Positions 30,298 to 41,913 of a stretch of DNA of 64,000 nt are shown in pieces (positions within the stretch are counted from its first letter, which is position 1; each line of letters begins with the position of its first letter). A program made the position numbers and the translations under genes. The DNA is from an uncultured Litoreibacter sp. (GTDB taxonomy: Bacteria > Pseudomonadota > Alphaproteobacteria > Rhodobacterales > Rhodobacteraceae). Location: NCBI GenBank assembly GCA_947501685.1, contig CANMWQ010000002.1, positions 310,001 through 374,000 on the forward strand, read 5' to 3'. A model generated the notes under the pieces. The model did no database searches, was not told the origin of the DNA, and saw only the letters and a list, made by a program, of their open reading frames with translations.

Positions 30298-31470
30298 ATG
30301 AAGACAGTCGTAATTGCCGGTGCCAGCCGCACGCCGATGGGAGGCTTTCAGGGGGAGTTTCAGGACGCAGATGCGCCGACCCTTGGGGGCGTTGCCATCA
30401 AAGCCGCGCTGCAAGCCGCAGGGGCCTCGACCGTTGACGAGCTCCTGATGGGCTGCGTCTTGCCCGCAGGTCTGGGCCAGGCCCCCGCGCGTCAGGCAGG
30501 CTTCAAAGCAGGTCTCGGCGAAGAGGTCCCCGCGACGACCCTGAACAAGATGTGCGGCTCGGGCATGAAGGCCGCGATGATGGCCTTTGATCAAATCGCG
30601 CTGGGCCACGCCGACACCATGGTTGCGGGCGGGATGGAAAGCATGACCAACGCGCCGTATCTTCTGCCCAAAATGCGAAACGGAGCCCGCATCGGCCATC
30701 AAAACGTGCAGGATTCCATGTTCCTCGACGGTCTCGAAGACGCCTATGACAAAGGTCGCCTGATGGGCACCTTCGCCGAAGATTGCGCGGAGAAATTCCA
30801 GTTCACCCGCGAGGCGCAGGACGACTACGCTTTGGCTTCCCTCAGCCGGGCGCTCGACGCCCAAAAGAGCGGAGCGTTCGACACCGAAATCGCACCCGTC
30901 ACGCTGACCTCCCGTCGCGGCGACACAACCATCACCGCCGACGAGCAACCCGCCAAGGCCCGCCCCGAGAAAATCCCTCAGCTCAAACCCGCCTTCCGCA
31001 AGGACGGCTCGGTCACGGCCGCCAATGCGTCGTCAATTTCCGACGGGGCGGCGGCGCTGGTTCTTGCCTCTGAAGAGGCCGCGCAGACGCAAGGCCTTAA
31101 AATCCGCGCCAAGATCATGGGCCATGCCAGCCACGCGCAGGCGCCGGGCTGGTTCACCACCGCTCCCGTGCCCGCCGCGCAAAAGCTGCTCAAATCCATC
31201 GGCTGGGCCAAAGACGATGTTGACCTCTGGGAGGTCAACGAGGCCTTCGCCGTTGTCCCCATGGCCTTCATGCACGAAATGGGCCTCGAGCACGACAAGG
31301 TGAACGTCAACGGCGGGGCCTGCGCTTTGGGCCATCCCATCGGGGCCTCCGGCGCGCGCATCATGGTCACGCTGCTCAATGCGCTCGAAACCCGCGGCCT
31401 GAAACGCGGCGTAGCTGCTATTTGCATCGGCGGCGGCGAGGGCACAGCCATCGCGATCGAGTGCCCGTGA
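30298..31470 (+). CDS. Acetyl-CoA C-acyltransferase (thiolase)
   Basis: A 390-residue thiolase II family enzyme. The acyl-accepting Cys86 is in NKMCGSGM; the other active-site motifs NEAFAVVP, GGACALGHPIGASGAR and the terminal CIGGGEGTA, with the second catalytic cysteine, are intact. It could condense two acetyl-CoA units (polyhydroxybutyrate or acetoacetate route) or cleave 3-ketoacyl-CoA; sequence alone does not decide. GGAG lies before the ATG. It heads an operon with fRMsr and an L-threonate-dehydrogenase-like gene, the first overlap being GTGA. Confidence 0.92.
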   Translation: MKTVVIAGASRTPMGGFQGEFQDADAPTLGGVAIKAALQAAGASTVDELLMGCVLPAGLGQAPARQAGFKAGLGEEVPATTLNKMCGSGMKAAMMAFDQIALGHADTMVAGGMESMTNAPYLLPKMRNGARIGHQNVQDSMFLDGLEDAYDKGRLMGTFAEDCAEKFQFTREAQDDYALASLSRALDAQKSGAFDTEIAPVTLTSRRGDTTITADEQPAKARPEKIPQLKPAFRKDGSVTAANASSISDGAAALVLASEEAAQTQGLKIRAKIMGHASHAQAPGWFTTAPVPAAQKLLKSIGWAKDDVDLWEVNEAFAVVPMAFMHEMGLEHDKVNVNGGACALGHPIGASGARIMVTLLNALETRGLKRGVAAICIGGGEGTAIAIECP

Positions 31471-31934
31471 GAGCCGAATACAAAGAACTGGCGCAGGTCA
31501 TCACAAGCCTGACCGAGGGCGAAACCGATGCCGTCGCCCTCATGGCCACTGTCGCCTGCGAGGTGCATCATGCCGATGACCGGTTCGACTGGACCGGTTT
31601 TTACCGCGTCGTGGCCCCAGAGCTGATGAAGATCGGCCCCTATCAAGGCGGACATGGCTGTCTGGTCATCCCGTTCTCGCGCGGCGTCTGCGGCGCGGCG
31701 GCCCGCACCGGCGAGGTCCAACTGGTCGCCGATGTCGATGCGTTCCCCGGCCACATCGCCTGCGCCTCCTCCACCCGCTCAGAGCTGGTCCTGCCCGTTT
31801 GGGACGGCACCGGCACCCTGATCGCGGTTTTTGATATCGACAGCGACCAACCGGACGCATTTACCCAGGCCGACGCCGACGCGTTGGCGGCCATCCTCAA
31901 GCAGGTCTTCGATCAGACCCGCGCCACAGATTAA
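31467..31934 (+). CDS. msrC: Free methionine-(R)-sulfoxide reductase (GAF domain)
   Basis: A 155-residue GAF-domain enzyme that reduces free methionine-R-sulfoxide. All three cysteines of the fRMsr family are present: Cys65 (GGHGCLVIPF), Cys75 (RGVCGAA) and Cys99 (GHIACASS), with the domain ending VFDIDSDQPDAF. I use the GTG at 31467, which overlaps the thiolase stop as GTGA; an earlier in-frame ATG lies inside the thiolase gene and adds a basic, unrelated stretch. Translational coupling to a thiolase is unusual and has no obvious metabolic reason. Confidence 0.88.
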   Translation: MRAEYKELAQVITSLTEGETDAVALMATVACEVHHADDRFDWTGFYRVVAPELMKIGPYQGGHGCLVIPFSRGVCGAAARTGEVQLVADVDAFPGHIACASSTRSELVLPVWDGTGTLIAVFDIDSDQPDAFTQADADALAAILKQVFDQTRATD

Positions 31935-31944
31935 GGAACATATC

Positions 31945-32841
31945 ATGAGCAACATCGCGGTTTTCGGCCTTGGGGCAATGGGCTACGGCATCGCCAGTTC
32001 GGTGCTGCGTGCGGGGCACACGACCTACGGGGTCGACGTCGTTCCCGCGCAGATCCAGAAGTTCCAAAGCGAAGGCGGCGCGTCAGGGGATGTGTCCGAC
32101 AACGCGGCCTCGCTGGATGCGGTCGCCGTGGTGGTGCTGAATGCCGCCCAGACCGAAGCTGTGATGTTTGGCGACAACGGCATCGTGCCCAAGCTGCGCA
32201 AAGGCGCGGTCGTTCTGGCCTGCGCCACCGTGCCGCCCGACTTCGCCCGCTCCATGGAGGCCCGTTGCGCCGAGCACGGCGTCCACTATCTCGACGCGCC
32301 CATCTCCGGCGGGGCAGGGAAGGCCGCCAGCGGGCAGCTCTCCATCATGGCCTCAGGCAGCGCTGACGCTTTCAAAGCCGCCAAGCCCGTTCTGGATGCC
32401 ACGTCTGAAACCGTCTTCACCTTAGGCGACAGCGCCGGCGCGGGCTCTGCCATGAAAGCGGTCAACCAGCTGCTGGCAGGCGTCCATATCGCCACCATGG
32501 CGGAGGCGCTGACCTTTGGCATGACCCAAGGCGTCGCCCCTGAGAAATTCGTCGAGGTGATCTCCAAATGCGCGGGCTCCAGCTGGATGCTGGAAAACCG
32601 CGCGCCGCATATCGTGGACGGCGATTACACCCCGCTCTCCTCGGTCAATATCTGGCCCAAGGACCTCGGCATCGTGCTCGACATCGCCAAATCCGCCCAG
32701 TTCAGCGCGCCGATCACCGCCGTCGCACTGCAACAATTCATCGCCGCCGCAGGCATGGGGCTCGGCGGCGAGGATGACGCCGCTGTCGCAAAGGTCTACG
32801 CGCGAAACGCTGGGCTGACATTGCCGGGTGAAAAGGGCTGA
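31945..32841 (+). CDS. Beta-hydroxyacid dehydrogenase family, L-threonate dehydrogenase-like
   Basis: A 298-residue NAD(P)-dependent dehydrogenase. The Rossmann motif FGLGAMGYG (about 5-13), the substrate signature DAPISGGAGKAASGQL and the catalytic lysine in GSAMKAVNQLL are all present. Within the family it looks closest to LtnD, which oxidises L-threonate at C2, but no partner kinase or isomerase genes of that pathway are nearby, so the substrate remains open. AAGGA lies before the ATG and it is 10 bp after the fRMsr gene. The 108-base gap that follows carries the regulator's inverted repeat. Confidence 0.83.
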   Translation: MSNIAVFGLGAMGYGIASSVLRAGHTTYGVDVVPAQIQKFQSEGGASGDVSDNAASLDAVAVVVLNAAQTEAVMFGDNGIVPKLRKGAVVLACATVPPDFARSMEARCAEHGVHYLDAPISGGAGKAASGQLSIMASGSADAFKAAKPVLDATSETVFTLGDSAGAGSAMKAVNQLLAGVHIATMAEALTFGMTQGVAPEKFVEVISKCAGSSWMLENRAPHIVDGDYTPLSSVNIWPKDLGIVLDIAKSAQFSAPITAVALQQFIAAAGMGLGGEDDAAVAKVYARNAGLTLPGEKG

Positions 32842-32893: not shown

Positions 32894-32920
32894 CGTGAAA
32901 AAAGCGGCATAAATTTCACG
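32894..32920. promoter_or_regulatory. Candidate operator of the XRE-cupin regulator
   Basis: CGTGAAA (32894-32900) and TTTCACG (32914-32920) form a perfect 7-bp inverted repeat with 13 bases between, half-site centres 20 bp apart (two helical turns), 30 bases before the regulator ATG. A second, interleaved stem AAGCGGC / GCCGCTT (32902-32908, 32923-32929) is present. The position fits autoregulation; the protein that binds is not proven. Confidence 0.5.
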
Positions 32921-32949
32921 ACGCCGCTTCCACTCATGAAGGTCGGCGC

Positions 32950-33522
32950 ATGAAATTCGACAATCCAGCTCACACCCAAACGCTCGGCGCGGATCTGCGC
33001 GCCCTGCGCAAGGCGCGTGGGCTGACATTGGCGGAACTGGCCGACAAGTTGGGTCGTTCCGTGGGCTGGCTCAGTCAGGTGGAGCGCGACAAATCCGAGC
33101 CCGGCGTCACCGACCTGCGCCATATGTCCAAGGCGCTCGACGTGTCGGTCTCTAGCCTGTTTCGCCAAGACGCTGTCCCTGCGCATGAGCAAGGCTATAT
33201 CGTCCGCGCAGGGGCCCGCCGTCCCATCGGGTCGCGCGAGGCTGGCCTCGTCGAAGAGCTCCTCTCTCCCGACCTCACCGATGATTTCGAGATGGTGCAT
33301 TCCACGTTTCAACCCGGCGCAGAGATCACGCAGCCGGTCACCCGACCGACCCAGGAGGTGGGCTATATCGTCTCCGGCTCGCTCGACATCTGGGTCAACG
33401 GCACCACCCACTCCCTGAACGCGGGCGACAGTTTTCGTGTGCGCGGCGAGCCGTTTCGCTGGATGAACCCGCACCCGGACCCCGCCGTGGTGATCTGGGT
33501 CATCGCACCTCCGGTTTATTGA
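32950..33522 (+). CDS. XRE-family regulator with cupin sensor domain
   Basis: A 190-residue regulator. The N-terminal helix-turn-helix (about 10-65: LGADLRALRKARGLTLAELA then LGRSVGWLSQVER) is followed by a cupin_2 domain (about 110-185: FQPGAEI, VGYIVSGSLDIWVNG, NAGDSF). This class (PuuR/SutR-like) senses small metabolites and often controls adjacent catabolic genes. Its own stop overlaps or abuts the LysE gene, and co-oriented downstream genes to 41.9 kb encode methylated-glycine metabolism, so I infer that it controls them. AAGG lies before the ATG. Confidence 0.9.
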   Translation: MKFDNPAHTQTLGADLRALRKARGLTLAELADKLGRSVGWLSQVERDKSEPGVTDLRHMSKALDVSVSSLFRQDAVPAHEQGYIVRAGARRPIGSREAGLVEELLSPDLTDDFEMVHSTFQPGAEITQPVTRPTQEVGYIVSGSLDIWVNGTTHSLNAGDSFRVRGEPFRWMNPHPDPAVVIWVIAPPVY

Positions 33523-33524
33523 CC

Positions 33525-34145
33525 ATGTCTTGGGAGGGATGGGTCATATTCGCGCTGTTCTGGGTGGTCTTCGTCACCACACCCGGCCCCAACGCGGTCA
33601 ATTGCGTGACCAACGGCATGACCCACGGCTTCAAACGCTCCCTCTGGGGCGTGCTGGCGATCCTCACCCAAGCCACGCTCTTCCTGCTCTTGTCCGCCGC
33701 CGGGGTCACCGCGCTTTTGGCCCAAGCGCCAGAGGCCTTCTTTTACGGCAAACTCTTAGGGGCCGCAGTCCTGATCTATCTCGGGGTCCGAGGCTGGCTG
33801 AACGCCGCCAAACCCGTCGCCCCCCGGGCGGTCTCCGCCACATCCATCTACGGCAAGGCGTTTCTCATCGCCACGATCAACGTCAAATCCGTCGCGGGCT
33901 ATTTCGCGGCCTTCACGCAATTCGTGCAGCCGGACGTCGCCGTCTGGCAGCAAATGTGGGTCATCATGCCCACCGCCCTCGCCATTACCGCCGCCAGCTA
34001 TCTGACTTACACCGCCATCGGCGCAGGCCTCGGCCGCTCCGCCATGAGCGCGATCCTCAACATCTGGGTCCGCCGCGTCATGGCCGCCTGTTTCATCCTC
34101 TACGGGCTGGCCTTGGGCAGCGCCTCCTCACCGGGGAGGGCGTGA
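33525..34145 (+). CDS. LysE/RhtB-family amino-acid exporter
   Basis: A 206-residue inner-membrane exporter with five or six hydrophobic helices and the family signature TPGPNAVNCVTNGMTHGFKR in the first loop. The family exports lysine, homoserine, threonine and related compounds. Translation could start at TTG 33519, overlapping the regulator stop, but the ATG at 33525 (MSWEGWVIF) matches the family start better. The next gene starts within its stop codon (TGATG), so it is part of the same operon. In a betaine/sarcosine context it might export an amino-acid product such as glycine or methionine; that is inference. Confidence 0.87.
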   Translation: MSWEGWVIFALFWVVFVTTPGPNAVNCVTNGMTHGFKRSLWGVLAILTQATLFLLLSAAGVTALLAQAPEAFFYGKLLGAAVLIYLGVRGWLNAAKPVAPRAVSATSIYGKAFLIATINVKSVAGYFAAFTQFVQPDVAVWQQMWVIMPTALAITAASYLTYTAIGAGLGRSAMSAILNIWVRRVMAACFILYGLALGSASSPGRA

Positions 34146-34516
34146 TGAAAGGCACCTGCAACTGCGGCGCTTGCGCTTTCGAGGTGACTGGCAAAACATG
34201 GGGCACCTCAAACTGCCATTGCGGGCAATGCCGGAAGCAATCGGGCAATGTCTGGGCCTCCGCCGTGGTGGAGCAAGCCGATATCGCAACCAGTGGCCCC
34301 GTCACATGGTACGCCTCCTCGGCCAGTGCCAAACGCGGCTTTTGCCCCACCTGCGGCTGCAACCTCTTTTGGAAGCATGACGAGGAAAGCTCCATGAGCT
34401 TCTCGCTCGGTGCCATCGACGGCCCCACGGGCCTGACAATCGAAAAACACATCTTCGTCGCCGACAAGGGCGACTATTACAACATCGCGGACGGACTGCC
34501 GCAGCACGATCAATAA
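34145..34516 (+). CDS. GFA (CENP-V/GFA-like) zinc-binding protein
   Basis: A 123-residue protein of the glutathione-dependent formaldehyde-activating (GFA) family. The zinc ligands are in the expected order: GTCNCGAC near the start, NCHCGQCRK (about 24-32) and FCPTCGCNLFW (about 73-83). The founding member was reported to promote the glutathione-formaldehyde adduct, although that activity is disputed and many members have unknown roles. Next to two demethylating flavoproteins that can release formaldehyde, a formaldehyde-related role is attractive but unproven. It starts in the stop codon of the LysE gene. Confidence 0.87.
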   Translation: MKGTCNCGACAFEVTGKTWGTSNCHCGQCRKQSGNVWASAVVEQADIATSGPVTWYASSASAKRGFCPTCGCNLFWKHDEESSMSFSLGAIDGPTGLTIEKHIFVADKGDYYNIADGLPQHDQ

Positions 34517-34527
34517 GGGAGACACCC

Positions 34528-36972
34528 ATGTCTGATTTTCCAACAACGGCCCGCGTGGTCATCATCGGCGGCGGTGTCGTCGGCACCTCCACGCTGTATC
34601 ATCTGGCCAAGGCAGGCTGGACCGACTGCGTGCTGCTGGAGAAAAACGAGCTGACCGCGGGCTCCACATGGCACGCGGCGGGCAACTGCCCCAACTTCGC
34701 GCCCAACTGGGCGGTGATGAACATGCAGCGCTACGGGTTGGCCATGTACCGGACACTGGCCAAGGACGTGGACTACCCGATGAACTACCACGTCACCGGC
34801 TCTATCCGGTTGGCCCATAGCAAGGAGCGGATGCAGGAGTTCGAAAAAATCTCAGCCCAGGCCCGCTACCAAGGCTTGGAGATGGATGTCTGCACAAATG
34901 AGGAACTGCGCGCCCACAACCCGTTCATGGAAACCCACGACCTGATGGGCGGCCTCTGGGACAGCCTCGACGGCGATATCGACCCCGCACAGCTGACCCA
35001 GGCGCTGGCCAAAGGCGCACGTAATGCAGGGGGCAACATCCAGCGCTTCTCCCCCGTCACTGGCATCGAGCGCGACGGCGATGAGTGGGTCGTGAAGACC
35101 GAAAAAGGCGATATCCGCTGCCAATATGTCGCCAACTGCGCGGGCTATTACGCGCAGCGCGTGGGCGAGATGTTCAAGCCTTTCGGCGGCCGGACCGTGC
35201 CCATGGTGACCATGTCCCACCAATATTTTCTGACCGGCCAATTGCCCGAGCTGGAGGCCTGGACCAAGGAGACCGGCCATAAGGTGCCTCTGCTACGCGA
35301 CCCCGATATCAGCTACTATCTGCGTCAGGACAAAAACGGCCTGAACCTTGGCCCCTATGAGCGCAACTGCAAGGCGCATTGGGTCACGCCCGAGGATCCC
35401 TTGCCCGAGGACTTCTCCTTCCAGCTGTATCCCGACGACCTGGAACGGCTTGAGTTCTACATCGAAGACGCCATGGCGCGGGTGCCGTTGCTGGGTGAGG
35501 GCGGGGTGGAGCGCAACATCAACGGCCCGATCCCATATGCCCCCGACGGCTTGCCCATGATCGGCCCCATGCCCGGCGTGAAGAACGCGTTTGAGGGCCA
35601 CTCCTTTACCTTCGGCATCGCTCAGGGCGGCGGCGCGGGGAAGGTGCTGTCGGAATGGATCATGCATGGCGAGACCGAGATGGATATGTGGTCCGTCGAC
35701 CCGCGTCGCTACACCGATTACGCCGATCACGACTATTGCCACGCCAAGGCGCTGGAAACCTATGGCCACGAATACGCCATGCATTTCCCGCATCACGAAT
35801 GGCCCGCAGGCCGCGACAAGAAGCTGTCGCCTTTGCATTCCCGCCTGCTCGACGCGGGCGCACAGATGGGGGCTTATAATGGCTGGGAACGCGCCAATTG
35901 GTACGCCAAGCCGGGCGACGACACATCGGAAGAATCGACCCAGACATGGGGCAGAAACGGCCCATGGCAGCCGCGCATCAAGGAGGAGGTCGAGGCCGTC
36001 ATGAACGGCGCTGGCATCCTGCCCATCACCGGCTTCACCCGCCTGTCGGTCGAAGGTCCCGGCGCGCGGGACTTCATCGACGGGCTCAGCGCGTCGCGCC
36101 TGCCCTCCGTGGGTCGGGTCGGGCTGGCCTACTTCGCCGACAGCCGTGGTCGCATCGTGACCGAGATGTCCGTGATTCCGAAATCTGACGATGTGATCTG
36201 GCTGATCACCGCCGCCATGGCGCAATGGCACGACGCGGAGTTCCTGCGCAAACACGCCCCTGAAGGGATCGAGGTCCACGACCGCACCACGAAGCATGAA
36301 TGCCAGCTGGTCACCGGCCCAAAATCCCGCGAGGTGCTGGCCGCTGTCAGCGACGCGGATCTCTCCAAAGGCTGGCTGACCTATCAGGAGGCCAATGTCG
36401 CGGGCAAGCCTTGCGTGCTCCTGCGCGTCTCCTTCGCGGGCGAGCTGGGTTGGGAGGTGCACTCCACCATGGAAGACGCGCCTGCCGTCTGGGACGCCGT
36501 CACCGGCGCGGGCGCGCAGCCTTTCGGGATGTACGCGCTGAATTCGATGCGTCTGGAAAAAGGCTACCGCGCGTGGAAGGGCGATCTGTCCACGGATTAT
36601 TCGCTGCTGGAAGGCGGCCTCGACCGGTTCATCAAGTTCGACAAGCCGCAAGACTTCCCCGGCAAGGCCGCGCTGCTGGCGGAGCAACAACAAGGCCGCA
36701 AGAAAGGCTTTGTCACCATGGTCATGGAGCCCGGCGACACGGACGCGCCCTATATGTCGCCCGTCTATCAAGGGGACGATATCGTGGGCGAGGTGACCTC
36801 CTGCGGGATGGGGTATCGCACCGGCAAATGCGTGGCCTTGGGCATGGTGAAGCTCGACGCAACGGTCGTGGGCACCGAGCTGGAGGTCGACGTCTTCGGC
36901 ACCCGCCGTAAAGCGGTGGTGCAAGACGACGTCCCTCTCTGGGACCCAAAAAACGAAAGGCTCCGCGCATGA
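34528..36972 (+). CDS. Dimethylglycine dehydrogenase-like FAD/GcvT fusion protein (paralog 1)
   Basis: An 814-residue protein with four domains in order: a DAO-type FAD domain (1 to about 370, VVIIGGGVVGTSTLYHL), an FAO_M linker domain (about 370-430), a GcvT folate domain (about 440-700) and a GcvT C-terminal barrel (about 715-805). The motif STWHAAG holds His49, the residue to which FAD is covalently bound in dimethylglycine dehydrogenase and dimethylglycine oxidase. The likely reaction is oxidative demethylation of an N-methylglycine, with electrons passed to ETF. In the GcvT domain the usual acidic folate contact (DRGGIE.D type) reads SRGRIVTEMS, unlike the second paralog, so folate coupling may be altered. 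GGGAG lies before the ATG. Confidence 0.87.
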   Translation: MSDFPTTARVVIIGGGVVGTSTLYHLAKAGWTDCVLLEKNELTAGSTWHAAGNCPNFAPNWAVMNMQRYGLAMYRTLAKDVDYPMNYHVTGSIRLAHSKERMQEFEKISAQARYQGLEMDVCTNEELRAHNPFMETHDLMGGLWDSLDGDIDPAQLTQALAKGARNAGGNIQRFSPVTGIERDGDEWVVKTEKGDIRCQYVANCAGYYAQRVGEMFKPFGGRTVPMVTMSHQYFLTGQLPELEAWTKETGHKVPLLRDPDISYYLRQDKNGLNLGPYERNCKAHWVTPEDPLPEDFSFQLYPDDLERLEFYIEDAMARVPLLGEGGVERNINGPIPYAPDGLPMIGPMPGVKNAFEGHSFTFGIAQGGGAGKVLSEWIMHGETEMDMWSVDPRRYTDYADHDYCHAKALETYGHEYAMHFPHHEWPAGRDKKLSPLHSRLLDAGAQMGAYNGWERANWYAKPGDDTSEESTQTWGRNGPWQPRIKEEVEAVMNGAGILPITGFTRLSVEGPGARDFIDGLSASRLPSVGRVGLAYFADSRGRIVTEMSVIPKSDDVIWLITAAMAQWHDAEFLRKHAPEGIEVHDRTTKHECQLVTGPKSREVLAAVSDADLSKGWLTYQEANVAGKPCVLLRVSFAGELGWEVHSTMEDAPAVWDAVTGAGAQPFGMYALNSMRLEKGYRAWKGDLSTDYSLLEGGLDRFIKFDKPQDFPGKAALLAEQQQGRKKGFVTMVMEPGDTDAPYMSPVYQGDDIVGEVTSCGMGYRTGKCVALGMVKLDATVVGTELEVDVFGTRRKAVVQDDVPLWDPKNERLRA

Positions 36973-37054
36973 CCAAACACGGGCCCACCCACCTCCCTTC
37001 CATGCTGCGCATGTCACCATCGGTGGCGCCGCTGTGCGGCGAAGGGCGCGTGCT

Positions 37055-37927
37055 ATGAGCGTTACAATTCTCGATGGCGGCATGGGGCAAGAGCTGGTCG
37101 CCCGCATGGGCCGCGCCACGGGCCTATGGGCCACGCAAGCGCTGCTTGAAGCCCCGCATCTCGTGCGCGAGGTGCATGACGACTATTTCGCTGCGGGCGC
37201 GCAAGTCGCGACCGTCAACAGCTACGGCATCCTGCCCGATCGGCTGGTGGCGCATAATATCGGCGACAGCCTGCGGCGGCTGACGGAGGTGGCTTGCCAG
37301 ATCGCCGTTGATGCCCGCGACGCGCATGGCTCGGGGCTGGTTCTGGGCTCTGTCGGGCCGATGGGGTTCTCCTACCAGCCGCATCTGGCCCCGCCTTCTG
37401 AGCGTGCCGCCGAGGACTACGCGCAGCTGGCCCGGTTTCAGGAGCCATTCGTGGATGCTCATATCGCCGAAACCATGGCCTCCGTCGATCAGGCCAAGGG
37501 CGCGTTGATGGGGTTGGGCGTCACCGGCAAGCCGGTCTGGCTGGCTCTGTCTGTCAGCGACACTGACGGCACCAAGCTGCGCTCCGGCGAGCCGCTGCGC
37601 GACGTCCTGCCTTTGCTGGACGAATACAAACCCGCCGCCGTCCTGATCAATTGCTCCATGCCCGAGGCGGTCACCCAAGCCCTGCCCGAACTGTCGGGCC
37701 TCTCTATGCCGTTAGGTGCCTATGCCAACGGCTTCACTGGCATCAACTCCGACTTTGACCATATCGGCGCAACCGTCGACGTGCTCAGCGCGCGCACCGA
37801 TCTTGACGCGGAGGCCTACGCCGCGTTCGCCGAAGGCTGGGCCAGCAAAGGTGCCACGCTCATCGGTGGCTGCTGCGAGGTTGGCCCCGCTCATATCGCC
37901 GAACTCGCCAGAAGGTTCGCAAAATGA
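37055..37927 (+). CDS. Homocysteine S-methyltransferase family protein (betaine-type)
   Basis: A 290-residue zinc-dependent methyltransferase with the pterin-independent homocysteine S-methyltransferase fold. It opens with ILDGGMGQEL and has the zinc cysteines in LINCSMPEA and, near the C-terminus, IGGCCEVGPAHI. Such enzymes move a methyl group from betaine, dimethylsulfoniopropionate or S-methylmethionine to homocysteine. Sitting between two dimethylglycine-dehydrogenase-like genes, betaine is the natural donor. I use the ATG at 37055; an earlier non-ATG opening adds seven basic residues. The stop overlaps the next ATG (ATGA). Confidence 0.87.
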   Translation: MSVTILDGGMGQELVARMGRATGLWATQALLEAPHLVREVHDDYFAAGAQVATVNSYGILPDRLVAHNIGDSLRRLTEVACQIAVDARDAHGSGLVLGSVGPMGFSYQPHLAPPSERAAEDYAQLARFQEPFVDAHIAETMASVDQAKGALMGLGVTGKPVWLALSVSDTDGTKLRSGEPLRDVLPLLDEYKPAAVLINCSMPEAVTQALPELSGLSMPLGAYANGFTGINSDFDHIGATVDVLSARTDLDAEAYAAFAEGWASKGATLIGGCCEVGPAHIAELARRFAK

Positions 37928-38379
37928 TCCCGCAATCCACGCAACAGCTGATCACCCGCTGGCGCTTGGGCCATATCGCCACCGTCACCCCCGGCGGCAG
38001 GCCGTCGGTCAGCCCGAAAGGCACCTTTCTGGTGGTCGACGACAGCACTATCGCCTTTGGCGAAATCCGCTCGCCTCAAACGGTCAGCAACCTGACCCAT
38101 AGCCCCGAATGCGAGGTCAATTTCGTCGATGCCTTCACCCGCAAAGGCGCCCGCCTGCGCGGCACTGGCGAAATGGTGCGGGAAGGAACGGCGGAATTCG
38201 ACGCCTTGTTTCCGCGCTTCAAGGAGGTCTGGGGCGATCTCTGCGACCGCATGAACCTCATCGTCAAAATCAACGTCACAGAGGTCAAACCCCTCAACAC
38301 GCCGCTTTATGACGACGGGGCCACGGAGGCCGAAGTGATCGCGCTGAACAAGGCCAAGTTTTCGGAGATGTATCCGTGA
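37924..38379 (+). CDS. Pyridoxamine 5'-phosphate oxidase-fold protein
   Basis: A 151-residue split-barrel flavin-binding protein of the PNPOx-like superfamily (RLGHIATVTPGGRPSVSPKGTFLVVDDSTIAFGEI near the start). Such short members bind FMN, F420 or heme and rarely make pyridoxal phosphate. A role in the demethylation operon is unclear. Start and stop overlap the neighbouring genes (ATGA and GTGA), so it is firmly embedded in the operon. Confidence 0.82.
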   Translation: MIPQSTQQLITRWRLGHIATVTPGGRPSVSPKGTFLVVDDSTIAFGEIRSPQTVSNLTHSPECEVNFVDAFTRKGARLRGTGEMVREGTAEFDALFPRFKEVWGDLCDRMNLIVKINVTEVKPLNTPLYDDGATEAEVIALNKAKFSEMYP

Positions 38380-39437
38380 GCCTGCCCACAACCATGTCCG
38401 GGGTGCAGCTGACAGGCCATGGCGGCCCTGAAAAGCTGGTCTGGTCCGACGCCCTGCCGGCGCCACGCCCGCGCAAGGGCTGGGCGCTGGTCAAAGTGCT
38501 GGCCGCCGGGGTGAACAACACCGATATCAACACGCGTATCGGCTGGTATGCGCGCGAAAACACCGGCTCGACGCAGGACACGCATGGGGCCTCCGGCGAC
38601 GTCCAAGGCGGCTGGTCCGGCGCGCTGCCTTTCCCGCTGATCCAAGGCGGCGATTTGTGTGGGGAGGTCGTGGCACTGGGCCCTGACACCACCGGTCCCG
38701 CCATCGGCGCGCGCGTGGTCTGCGCCAATGTGCAACCCGACCCGGACAGCGACAGCCCGGTGGGCTACCGCGTCATCGGATCGGAATATGACGGGGCCTT
38801 CGCGCAATATTGCGCGGTCCCGGTAGACGCGCTTTACGACGTCACCCGCTCCCCGCTGTCTGATGTTGAAATAGGGGCCATGCCCTGCGCCTTTGGCACG
38901 GCAATGGGGCTGGTCCACCGCTCCGGCGTCGCGGCCAACTCGCGGGTTTTGGTCACCGGGGCCTCAGGCGGGGTCGGCATGGCCGCCACCAGCATCGCCG
39001 CCCATCTGGGCGCGCAAGTGACCGGCATCTGCCATGCCGATAAGGCGGCCTTCGTGAAGGAGGCAGGCGCGACCCACACGCTGGCGCGCGACGCGCAGCC
39101 CCCGGCGCAAAGCTATGACATCGTGATCGACCTTGTCGGCGGCCCCGCCTTTCCCGCGCTTCTGGATGCGCTGAAGCCCGGCGGGCGCTACGCGGTCTCT
39201 GGTGCCATCGCGGGCCCGATTGTCGAGGCGGATTTGCGCACCATCTACCTCAACGACCTGACGCTGATCGGCTGCACCTTTCAAAGCCCCGAGAGCTTTG
39301 CGGCTCTGATCGCGCTGATCAATGACGGGGCGATCCGCCCCCGGATTGCGCAAACCTTCCCGCTTAAAGACATCGCGCAGGCCCAAGCCGCCTTCGCCGA
39401 AAAATCCTATGCCGGCAAGCTGGTGCTGATCCCATGA
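38376..39437 (+). CDS. MDR-superfamily oxidoreductase (quinone oxidoreductase-like)
   Basis: A 353-residue medium-chain dehydrogenase. The NADP-binding motif is VLVTGASGGVGMAATSIAAHLGA (about 187-209). The catalytic zinc cysteine found near residue 40 of alcohol dehydrogenases is replaced here (AAGVNNTDINTR), as in zinc-free quinone oxidoreductases and enoyl reductases. A loop with ENTGSTQDTHGASGD (about 63-78) is longer than in typical QOR. The physiological substrate is unknown; an aldehyde or electrophile detoxification role within the demethylation operon is a guess. Start is a GTG overlapping the preceding stop. Confidence 0.82.
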   Translation: MSLPTTMSGVQLTGHGGPEKLVWSDALPAPRPRKGWALVKVLAAGVNNTDINTRIGWYARENTGSTQDTHGASGDVQGGWSGALPFPLIQGGDLCGEVVALGPDTTGPAIGARVVCANVQPDPDSDSPVGYRVIGSEYDGAFAQYCAVPVDALYDVTRSPLSDVEIGAMPCAFGTAMGLVHRSGVAANSRVLVTGASGGVGMAATSIAAHLGAQVTGICHADKAAFVKEAGATHTLARDAQPPAQSYDIVIDLVGGPAFPALLDALKPGGRYAVSGAIAGPIVEADLRTIYLNDLTLIGCTFQSPESFAALIALINDGAIRPRIAQTFPLKDIAQAQAAFAEKSYAGKLVLIP

Positions 39438-39474
39438 CCCCGCACCTTTGCCCCCTACGTTCGGAGTATTCGCT

Positions 39475-41913
39475 ATGACCCTTCCCACCTCCGCCCGCGT
39501 CGTCATCATCGGCGGCGGCGTCATCGGCTGCTCGGTCGCCTATCATCTGGCCAAGCAGGGCTGGAAAGACGTGGTGCTGCTGGAGCGCAAGCAACTGACC
39601 TCCGGCACCACATGGCACGCCGCGGGCCTCATCGCGCAGCTGCGCGCCACCAAGAACATGACCAAGCTCGCGAAATACTCCCAAGAACTCTACGGCAATC
39701 TGGCCGCCGAAACTGGCGTCGAAACCGGCTTCAAACGCTGCGGCTCCATCACCGTGGCGCTGACCGACGAGCGGCTGGAGGAGATCAGCCGCCAAGCCGC
39801 CATGGCCCGCAGCTTCGGGGTGGAGGCCGAACCAATCTCCCCACAAGAAGTCAAAAAGCGCTACGAACACCTCAACATCGACGGCGTCACTGGCGGCGTC
39901 TACCTGCCGCTCGACGGCCAAGGCGACCCGGCCAATATCGCGCAAGCCTTGGCCAAGGGCGCGCGCCAGAACGGGGCGCTGGTCAAGGAAGGCTACCTCA
40001 TCACCGCCATCCAGACCGAAAACCGCCGCGCCACCTCCGTCACATGGGAGGGCCATGGCGAAACCGGCACGATAGAGGCCGAGCACATCGTCAATTGCGG
40101 CGGCATGTGGGGCCACGGCGTGGGCCGCATGGCGGGCGTCAACGTCCCGCTGCATAGCTGCGAACATTTCTACATCGTCACCGAATCCATCCCCGGCCTC
40201 ACCCAAATGCCTGTGCTGCGCGTCCCCGACGAATGCGCCTACTATAAGGAAGACGCCGGAAAAATGCTGCTCGGCGCGTTCGAGCCGGTCTCCAAGCCCT
40301 GGACGCTTCAAATCCCCAAAGACTTCGAATTCGACCAGCTGCCCGAGGATTTCGACCATTTCGAGCCCATCTTGGAAAACGCGGTCGCGCGCATGCCGAT
40401 GCTGGCGGATGCGGGTATCCATACCTTCTTCAACGGGCCGGAAAGCTTCACGCCCGATGACGCTTACCATCTTGGCCTCGCGCCCGAGCTGGACAACTTC
40501 TGGGTCGCCGCAGGCTTTAACTCCATCGGTATTCAGTCCGCGGGTGGGGCAGGCCAAGCGCTGGCGCAATGGATGGAGGCAGGCGAAAAGCCCTTCGATC
40601 TGGGCGACGTTGATATCAGCCGCATGCAGCCGTTTCAGGGCAATAAAACCTACCTCTTCGAGCGCTCCAAGGAGACGCTGGGCCTGCTCTACGCCGACCA
40701 CTTCCCCTATCTGCAAAAGAAAACCGCCCGCGGGGTGCGCCGCACGCCGTTCCACCAGCATTTGCTGGACCAAGGCGCGGTGATGGGCGAGCTGGCAGGC
40801 TGGGAACGCGCCAATTGGTTCGCGCGCGAGGGCCAGGAGCCGACATACGAATACAGCTGGAAGCGGCAGAATTTCTTCGACAACGTTGCCGCCGAGCATA
40901 ACGCCGTGCGCAGCAACGTCGGCATGTATGATATGTCCTCTTTCGGTAAAATCCGTGTGGAGGGCCGCGACGCCGAGGCCTTCATGAACCATGTCGGCGG
41001 CGGCGATTACGCCTGCCCCATCGGCAAGATCGTCTACACGCAGTTCCTCAATTCCAAGGCAGGCATCGAGGCAGACGTCACCGTCACCCGCCTGTCGGAG
41101 ACCGCCTATCTCGTCGTCACCCCCGCCGCCACGCGGCTGGCCGATGAAACATGGCTACGCCGCAACATCGGCGATTTCAACGTGGTCATCACCGATGTCA
41201 CCGCCGCCGAGGGCGTGCTGGCCATCATGGGGCCAAACGCGCGCGCGTTGCTGGAAAAAGTCAGCCCCAATGACTTCACCAACGCCACCAACCCCTTCGG
41301 CACCGCTCAGGAGATCGAGATCGGAATGGGGCTCGCCCGCGCCCACCGCGTGACCTATGTGGGCGAGCTGGGTTGGGAGATCTACGTGTCCGCCGATCAG
41401 GCCGGCCATGTCTTCGAGACCCTGCATGAGGCGGGGCAGGAGATGGATCTGAAGCTCTGCGGCATGCATATGATGGACAGCTGCCGCATGGAAAAAGGCT
41501 TCCGCCATTTCGGCCATGACATCACCTCGGAAGATCACGTCATGGAGGCCGGCCTCGGCTTCGCCGTCAAAAAGGACAAGCCGGATTACATCGGCCGCGA
41601 CGCCATCCTGCGCAAACAGGATGAGGGGCTGCAAATGCGCCTGCTGCAATTCAAACTCACCGACCCCGAGCCGCTTTTGTACCACGCTGAACCCGTCTAC
41701 CGCGACGGGGAGCTGGCGGGCTATCTGACATCTGGCAGCTACGGCCACCATCTGGGCGCCGCGATGGGCATGGGCTACGTCCCCTGCGCAGGCGAAAAGC
41801 TGGCAGATGTGCTGGCCTCCAGTTTCGAGATCGACGTCGCGGGCACGCGCGTGAAGGCGGAGGCGTCCTCTAAGCCGTTCTACGATCCGACATCTGAGCG
41901 CGTGAAAGCCTGA
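39475..41913 (+). CDS. Dimethylglycine dehydrogenase-like FAD/GcvT fusion protein (paralog 2)
   Basis: An 812-residue protein with the same four-domain order as the 34.5-kb gene: DAO FAD domain (VVIIGGGVIGCSVAYHL at 9-25), FAO_M, GcvT and GcvT C-terminal barrel. The covalent-FAD histidine is His48 in TTWHAAG. Here the GcvT domain keeps the acidic contact in NSKAGIEADVTVTRL, expected to bind tetrahydrofolate and catch the released methyl carbon as methylene-THF, so this copy looks like a complete dimethylglycine or sarcosine dehydrogenase. The ATG at 39475 is chosen; nine in-frame residues upstream are not conserved in character. It is last in the operon, followed by a GC-rich hairpin. Confidence 0.88.
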   Translation: MTLPTSARVVIIGGGVIGCSVAYHLAKQGWKDVVLLERKQLTSGTTWHAAGLIAQLRATKNMTKLAKYSQELYGNLAAETGVETGFKRCGSITVALTDERLEEISRQAAMARSFGVEAEPISPQEVKKRYEHLNIDGVTGGVYLPLDGQGDPANIAQALAKGARQNGALVKEGYLITAIQTENRRATSVTWEGHGETGTIEAEHIVNCGGMWGHGVGRMAGVNVPLHSCEHFYIVTESIPGLTQMPVLRVPDECAYYKEDAGKMLLGAFEPVSKPWTLQIPKDFEFDQLPEDFDHFEPILENAVARMPMLADAGIHTFFNGPESFTPDDAYHLGLAPELDNFWVAAGFNSIGIQSAGGAGQALAQWMEAGEKPFDLGDVDISRMQPFQGNKTYLFERSKETLGLLYADHFPYLQKKTARGVRRTPFHQHLLDQGAVMGELAGWERANWFAREGQEPTYEYSWKRQNFFDNVAAEHNAVRSNVGMYDMSSFGKIRVEGRDAEAFMNHVGGGDYACPIGKIVYTQFLNSKAGIEADVTVTRLSETAYLVVTPAATRLADETWLRRNIGDFNVVITDVTAAEGVLAIMGPNARALLEKVSPNDFTNATNPFGTAQEIEIGMGLARAHRVTYVGELGWEIYVSADQAGHVFETLHEAGQEMDLKLCGMHMMDSCRMEKGFRHFGHDITSEDHVMEAGLGFAVKKDKPDYIGRDAILRKQDEGLQMRLLQFKLTDPEPLLYHAEPVYRDGELAGYLTSGSYGHHLGAAMGMGYVPCAGEKLADVLASSFEIDVAGTRVKAEASSKPFYDPTSERVKA

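Follow-up and report, generated by a model that had tools for sequence, protein, structure and literature searches.

A conserved two-flavoprotein operon in an uncultured Litoreibacter, probably the dimethylglycine-to-glycine half of betaine catabolism

Here we describe an eight-gene operon in a 64,000-nucleotide window (the whole stretch of DNA analysed) from contig CANMWQ010000002.1 of an uncultured Litoreibacter sp. The closest described systems come from Roseobacter litoralis and Ruegeria pomeroyi. In R. litoralis, the co-located genes RLO149_c039090, c039100 and c039110 are described as sarcosine dehydrogenase (SARDH), a candidate betaine-homocysteine methyltransferase (BHMT) and dimethylglycine dehydrogenase 4 (DMGDH4), and the 2011 paper proposed the homocysteine S-methyltransferase (HMT) RLO149_c039100 as a new class of bacterial BHMT (PMC3141670). 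The interpretation of such an operon is therefore already in print, and the cluster is largely anticipated. In R. pomeroyi, which grows on dimethylglycine and sarcosine, SPO3400 was assigned in 2015 as dimethylglycine dehydrogenase and SPO3396 as sarcosine dehydrogenase (PMC4744692), and SPO3398 is named an HMT (PMC4809877).

The first betaine step of R. pomeroyi has been linked to cobalamin. Mutants in mtgC and mtgD are reported not to grow on betaine, even with methionine; the MtgE type is treated as a methionine synthase subunit, and the steps predicted for dimethylglycine and sarcosine go up on betaine, choline and carnitine (PMC12478193). The main text of that paper carries a single SPO3... 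locus, and SPO3396, SPO3398 and SPO3400 are unnamed in the part of the text covered here. Meanwhile, Bmt of Phaeobacter inhibens, an enzyme of the MtgE type, is reported to use betaine and dimethylsulfoniopropionate in vitro, in an assay where enzyme and donor are each given as 200 uM (PMC12366255).

With a probability of roughly two in three, we read the Litoreibacter operon as the second half of betaine catabolism, from dimethylglycine to glycine, with a cobalamin enzyme demethylating betaine before it. In favour of this place at the last two methyl groups, its regulator and its two flavoproteins (FADA and FADB) recur most constantly in related loci. Dimethylglycine and sarcosine are suggested as substrates by an invariant FAD histidine and His-Tyr dyad, and by solved structures in which mammalian DMGDH and the dimethylglycine oxidase of Arthrobacter globiformis (AgDMGO) are the top relatives. 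The betaine step is put outside the operon because of the R. pomeroyi mutants and of mtg-type genes in this genome. The eight genes are as follows.

32950-33522, + strand: REG, XRE helix-turn-helix and cupin regulator, 190 aa (HTH_31, HTH_3, Cupin_2)
33519-34145, + strand: LysE-family exporter, 208 aa (PF01810)
34142-34516, + strand: GFA-domain protein, 124 aa (PF04828)
34528-36972, + strand: FADA, DAO-FAO_M-GcvT-GcvT_C flavoprotein, 814 aa, a probable dimethylglycine dehydrogenase (Pfam; rat DMGDH, 544 bits)
37055-37927, + strand: HMT, homocysteine S-methyltransferase, 290 aa, MmuM-like, apparently accessory (PF02574)
37924-38379, + strand: PNPOx-fold protein, 151 aa, optional (PF01243)
38376-39437, + strand: MDR-type oxidoreductase, 353 aa, optional (ADH_N, ADH_zinc_N)
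39475-41913, + strand: FADB, DAO-FAO_M-GcvT-GcvT_C flavoprotein, 812 aa, a probable sarcosine dehydrogenase (Pfam; rat DMGDH, 453 bits)

The open reading frames span 32950-41913. Four junctions (REG/LysE, LysE/GFA, HMT/PNPOx, PNPOx/MDR) overlap by 4 bases, and the gaps at GFA/FADA, FADA/HMT and MDR/FADB are 11, 82 and 37 bases. All eight products carry Pfam domains above the curated cut-off (HTH plus cupin, LysE, GFA, DAO-FAO_M-GCV_T-GCV_T_C twice, S-methyl_trans, PNPOx_N and ADH_N/ADH_zinc_N). Gene set, domains, overlaps and the single strand agree with an earlier sequence-only reading of this DNA. From the shared strand and the overlaps, the genes appear to form one transcription unit, and the position of REG suggests that it controls the operon. 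Scans of the operon were uninformative, giving 0 promoter-like sites against 1.7 expected from shuffles and 9 terminator-like sites against 8.2.

Scanning genome contigs with FADA yielded 514 relatives; the best 80 of these underlie the locus counts. This sample was picked by FADA score and is biased to close relatives; it consists chiefly of Roseobacter-group genera, plus two Rhizobiaceae metagenome-assembled genomes and two Ahrensia. At E <= 1e-10, FADA was present in 80 loci, REG in 79, FADB in 77, HMT in 69, GFA in 61 (sometimes as two or three copies per locus), LysE in 56, PNPOx in 9 and MDR in 4, the last at differing positions. The core of the operon is REG, FADA and FADB; HMT, GFA and LysE are common, and PNPOx and MDR are optional. 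The sequence-only reading had counted PNPOx and MDR as parts of the operon, which is right for the window, but the two are rare in related loci. It had also proposed a search for the same gene set in other Rhodobacterales; the set was found in many genera, and its recurrence is more than chance.

The three loci that lack FADB include two (L057, L078) where the contig ends early, and the third (L068) has none within 10 kb downstream. HMT lies between FADA and FADB in the window and in Roseobacter loci such as L023, L024, L027 and L029. It is absent from 11 of the 80 loci, 10 of which nonetheless have FADB downstream of FADA with at most one gene between them. Measured against the window copy, median identity is 50% for HMT (68 loci), 74% for FADA (80) and 81% for FADB (74), so that conservation is lowest for HMT among these three enzymes. 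Their pairwise-identity correlations are moderate and alike (0.45 to 0.53), and a swap of HMT between lineages is unsupported by them.

Both flavoproteins carry the WHAAG motif, as the sequence-only reading had stated, and unite the DAO, FAO_M, GcvT and GcvT_C domains in a single chain, each over the Pfam cut-off. The FAD histidine and the His-Tyr dyad were placed by alignment to AgDMGO (1pj5), for FADA via the paralog alignment. In FADA, the FAD residue His49, the dyad His231/Tyr263 and the folate-site Glu546 are invariant in 81 of 81 aligned sequences; in FADB, His48, His231/Tyr256 and the folate-site Asp534 are invariant in 75 of 75. FAD is probably bound covalently in both. We rejected the idea that the missing folate-site Asp of FADA marks altered chemistry, since mammalian DMGDH has Glu there too. 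The earlier claim of a conserved module with two folate-linked enzymes of the N-methylglycine dehydrogenase type is borne out by the 80 loci and the intact dyads.

The solved structures that score best with both flavoproteins are those of human DMGDH, rat DMGDH and AgDMGO, the last with 402 bits for FADB. The solved-structure matches named for FADB include no SARDH reference; its sarcosine assignment rests on the published annotation of SPO3396 (PMC4744692). The R. pomeroyi SPO3396-SPO3400 cluster is putatively orthologous to the window operon; a Ruegeria sp. locus (L082) has the order FADA-MDR-HMT-AraC-FADB, five genes that fit the SPO3396-SPO3400 numbering. On this basis FADA is the probable dimethylglycine dehydrogenase and FADB the probable sarcosine dehydrogenase.

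In the mechanism that we propose, betaine would be converted to dimethylglycine outside the operon by the cobalamin methyltransferase MtgB/MtgC/MtgD. The remaining N-methyl groups would then be oxidised in turn, most likely by FADA on dimethylglycine and by FADB on sarcosine. Each flavoprotein, with covalent FAD, would pass the methylene to tetrahydrofolate in its GcvT domain, yielding 5,10-methylene-tetrahydrofolate and finally glycine. The XRE-cupin protein would regulate the operon. GFA and LysE may have accessory roles, plausibly in dealing with stray formaldehyde and excess amino acid, and the MmuM-like HMT may convert homocysteine to methionine on the side.

The HMT is nearer to MmuM than to BHMT. 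Its best NCBIfam model is the MmuM-type PRK09485 with 129 bits (cut-off 215), against 69 bits for the BHMT-named PRK07534 (cut-off 338), both below cut-off; among solved structures it scores 97 bits with Escherichia coli MmuM (5dml), 59 with a methionine synthase and 50 with rat BHMT (1umy). All 70 aligned PF02574 sequences, made up of 69 operon HMTs and the MtgE of this genome, keep the zinc ligands Cys200/273/274, confirming the intact cysteines that had been noticed earlier, and the Trp44 equivalent is invariant as well. None of the 70 has Tyr at the columns of BHMT Tyr77 and Tyr160, where the window HMT has Gly58 and Thr140. We take these two to be betaine-site positions of BHMT; the numbers are our assumption, and no confirmation was found in the literature. 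Their absence is not decisive, since they are missing from MtgE too, and the MtgE-type enzyme of P. inhibens is reported to act on betaine.

The genome holds candidates for another first step. Its MtgE (L089:7384-8406) passes PRK07534 with 578 bits. We do not take this BHMT name at face value: in R. pomeroyi and P. inhibens such proteins are described as methionine synthase subunits, and the public name of the model may mislead. A candidate MtgD passes PRK07535 and adjoins a corrinoid-activator-like gene. In R. pomeroyi, metF2 lies beside mtgD; here the gene upstream of the MtgD candidate is not claimed as metF2, as it has no match in Pfam (0.001) or NCBIfam (1e-10). Five MTTB (PF06253) genes are candidates for MtgB.

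We compared these genes in a census of 80 genomes of the same family, one per other genus, with thresholds of E <= 1e-200 for FADA, 1e-35 for HMT, 1e-40 for MtgC and 1e-150 for strong MTTB. FADA was found in 47 genomes, HMT in 40, MtgC in 76 and strong MTTB in 76. Within the 47 FADA genomes, HMT lies within 8 kb in 24 and elsewhere in 8, of which two are split into about 400-500 contigs. It went undetected in the other 15, two of them incomplete genomes (82% and 86%). HMT without FADA occurs in 8 genomes. By-eye comparison of the row lists gave strong MTTB in 47/47 and MtgC in 46/47 FADA genomes, the sole one without MtgC (G008) being 82% complete. The same comparison found both MtgC and strong MTTB in all 40 HMT genomes, so HMT is not a substitute for the Mtg system in this sample. 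Given its MmuM-like scores, the missing BHMT tyrosines and its non-detection in 15 of the 47 FADA genomes, we regard the HMT as probably accessory and not the main betaine demethylase.

The sequence-only reading had taken the operon for a complete betaine-to-glycine module. The dimethylglycine and sarcosine part of that claim is supported, and the betaine part is weakened: for the latter to hold, the HMT would have to be a divergent BHMT that takes the first methyl group to homocysteine, leaving the rest to the flavoproteins. Such a role would suit the position of HMT between the flavoproteins in most loci (69/80 have it), its intact zinc cysteines and Trp44 equivalent, and the published proposal for RLO149_c039100; the reported activity of P. 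inhibens Bmt on betaine and dimethylsulfoniopropionate (PMC12366255) also speaks for it, as the MtgE of this genome likewise lacks Tyr77 and Tyr160. However, that assay had enzyme equal to donor, and in R. pomeroyi, whose cluster has the HMT SPO3398, mutation of mtgC or mtgD prevents growth on betaine even with methionine (PMC12478193). The bit scores favour MmuM, the BHMT tyrosines are missing, and the gene is absent from 11 of 80 loci and undetected in about a third of the FADA genomes. We therefore consider a complete pathway within the operon unlikely.

Several observations weigh against our preferred reading, the dimethylglycine-to-glycine half, and concern both the flavoprotein assignments and the Mtg step. 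The paralogs C3 and C6 are as near to human DMGDH as FADA is (36.1% and 35.9% identity, against 36.1%), so sequence does not single out FADA, and naming it the dimethylglycine enzyme by this similarity alone was rejected. Three full-length SoxA genes in the genome are other candidates for the sarcosine step, which in Rhodobacteraceae has been assigned to SoxBDAG (PMC7574528). The sequence-only claim of one paralog per N-methyl step is unproven for these reasons, C3, C6 and the SoxA genes. R. litoralis and Roseobacter denitrificans are reported to grow on betaine and not on dimethylglycine, a gap explained in the same paper by intracellular dimethylglycine (PMC3141670). The MtgC-like protein scores 188 bits, below the MtgC model cut-off of 370, and any of the five MTTB genes may be MtgB. 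Searches with three of the five MTTB proteins, with MtgC and with MtgE found nothing at E <= 1e-10 in the flanks of the 80 loci; some of these stretches are short. Finally, among the 33 census genomes without FADA, 30 have MtgC and 29 strong MTTB; both being near-universal (76/80 each), their co-occurrence with FADA is not specific.

Some of these points would equally suit FADA and FADB acting on another methylated amine or amino acid, with dimethylglycine and sarcosine handled by C3, C6, C8, C4 and SoxBDAG. The genome has six FAO_M proteins (FADA, FADB and the C3, C4, C6 and C8 paralogs), two of them, C8 and C4, directly beside MTTB genes, and the closeness of C3 and C6 to human DMGDH and the three SoxA genes point the same way. 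Against it stand the R. pomeroyi assignment (PMC4744692), the rise of the predicted steps on betaine, choline and carnitine (PMC12478193) and a GbdR-like regulator in 15 of 80 loci, and we judge it quite improbable. FADA and FADB are only 32% identical, which argues against a recent duplication. FADA is nearer to C4 (39%), C6 (36%) and C3 (35%) than to FADB, and FADB is 30-32% identical to each of its five paralogs. A small tree with long branches puts FADB next to AgDMGO, and FADA together with human DMGDH and the remaining four paralogs.

The GbdR-like regulator, of the AraC family, is encoded between HMT and FADB in L043, L046, L058, L066, L067, L075, L076, L077, L078, L080, L082, L083, L084, L085 and L088; in L078 the contig end cuts the gene off. 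GbdR is its top NCBIfam match (140-146 bits in 3 scanned copies, below the cut-off of 480). GbdR is the choline/betaine regulator of Pseudomonas, and we count the presence of a related gene in 15 loci in favour of our main reading.

In the census, 16 of the 80 genomes carry HMT away from FADA, and we inspected the stretches from 12 of them. GFA adjoins HMT in L121, L122, L124 and L125, and LysE adjoins it in L126; FADB is present in L118 and L121. The first four share the neighbourhood of the window operon (flanking STAS, GAF and other genes match), so the flavoprotein genes were lost or moved there and GFA and HMT retained. In L121 (G053:C2:45000-60000), REG, GFA, HMT and FADB are kept, a 472-aa open reading frame on the opposite strand takes the place of FADA, and FADA sits on another contig. 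Since 5 of the 12 stretches keep GFA or LysE beside HMT, we tentatively consider that HMT, GFA and LysE may be a side module of their own for homocysteine/methionine and formaldehyde, which would shield cells during N-methyl oxidation, the HMT taking its methyl group from a donor other than betaine. This seems doubtful: around HMT in 6 of the 12 (L116, L117, L119, L120, L123 and L127), none of the remaining operon genes is closely matched, and the genomes of L121, L122, L124 and L125 still have FADA elsewhere.

Upstream of the operon, a GAF-domain gene (31422-31934) is present in 65 of the 80 loci; it is presumably of the free methionine sulfoxide reductase type, and Pfam gives GAF alone. Farther upstream, a thiolase gene is kept in 50 of the loci and a STAS gene in 49. 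This conservation may be plain synteny. The gene at 31945-32841, between the GAF gene and REG, passes an L-threonate dehydrogenase model (416 bits, cut-off 350); it occurs in 1 of the 80 loci and so looks like a recent insertion. Elsewhere in the genome, in the stretches L090 and L093, two MTTB genes directly adjoin DMGDH-type flavoprotein genes. One pair (C8:35095-36588 and C8:36609-39032) shares a strand, and the other (C4:216378-217850 and C4:218057-220492) is divergent. Both are possible demethylation modules for other quaternary amines.

Taken together, our findings suggest a widespread marine operon set at the last two methyl groups in betaine turnover, not the first. Its HMT, of the SPO3398 type, stands out as a conserved gene; function tests of it were not found in the open-licence literature, and a genetic test could separate the 2011 proposal from the 2025 cobalamin model.

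The window operon shares with mammalian DMGDH and AgDMGO the full-length match, FAD His, His-Tyr dyad and GcvT domains of its two flavoproteins. FADA is 36.1% identical to human DMGDH and 27.6% to AgDMGO, whereas FADB is 32.9% and 32.7% identical. Its HMT has PF02574 and the three zinc cysteines in common with E. coli MmuM and rat BHMT, is closer to MmuM by bits, and differs from BHMT at Tyr77 and Tyr160. The mtg-type genes of this genome offer MtgB/MtgC/MtgD as another candidate for the first step; these genes lie outside the operon and were not found in the flanks of the 80 loci. Compared by published annotation, SPO3396-SPO3400 of R. pomeroyi holds a dimethylglycine dehydrogenase, an HMT and a sarcosine dehydrogenase as the window operon does. 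In the Ruegeria sp. locus, MDR precedes HMT, AraC precedes FADB and PNPOx is lacking, while in the window PNPOx and MDR follow HMT and no AraC gene lies at that place. Compared by published description, R. litoralis RLO149_c039090-c039110 has co-located SARDH, HMT and DMGDH genes as in the window; the available text of that description (PMC3141670) makes no mention of PNPOx, MDR, LysE, GFA or a regulator, all of which belong to the operon described here.

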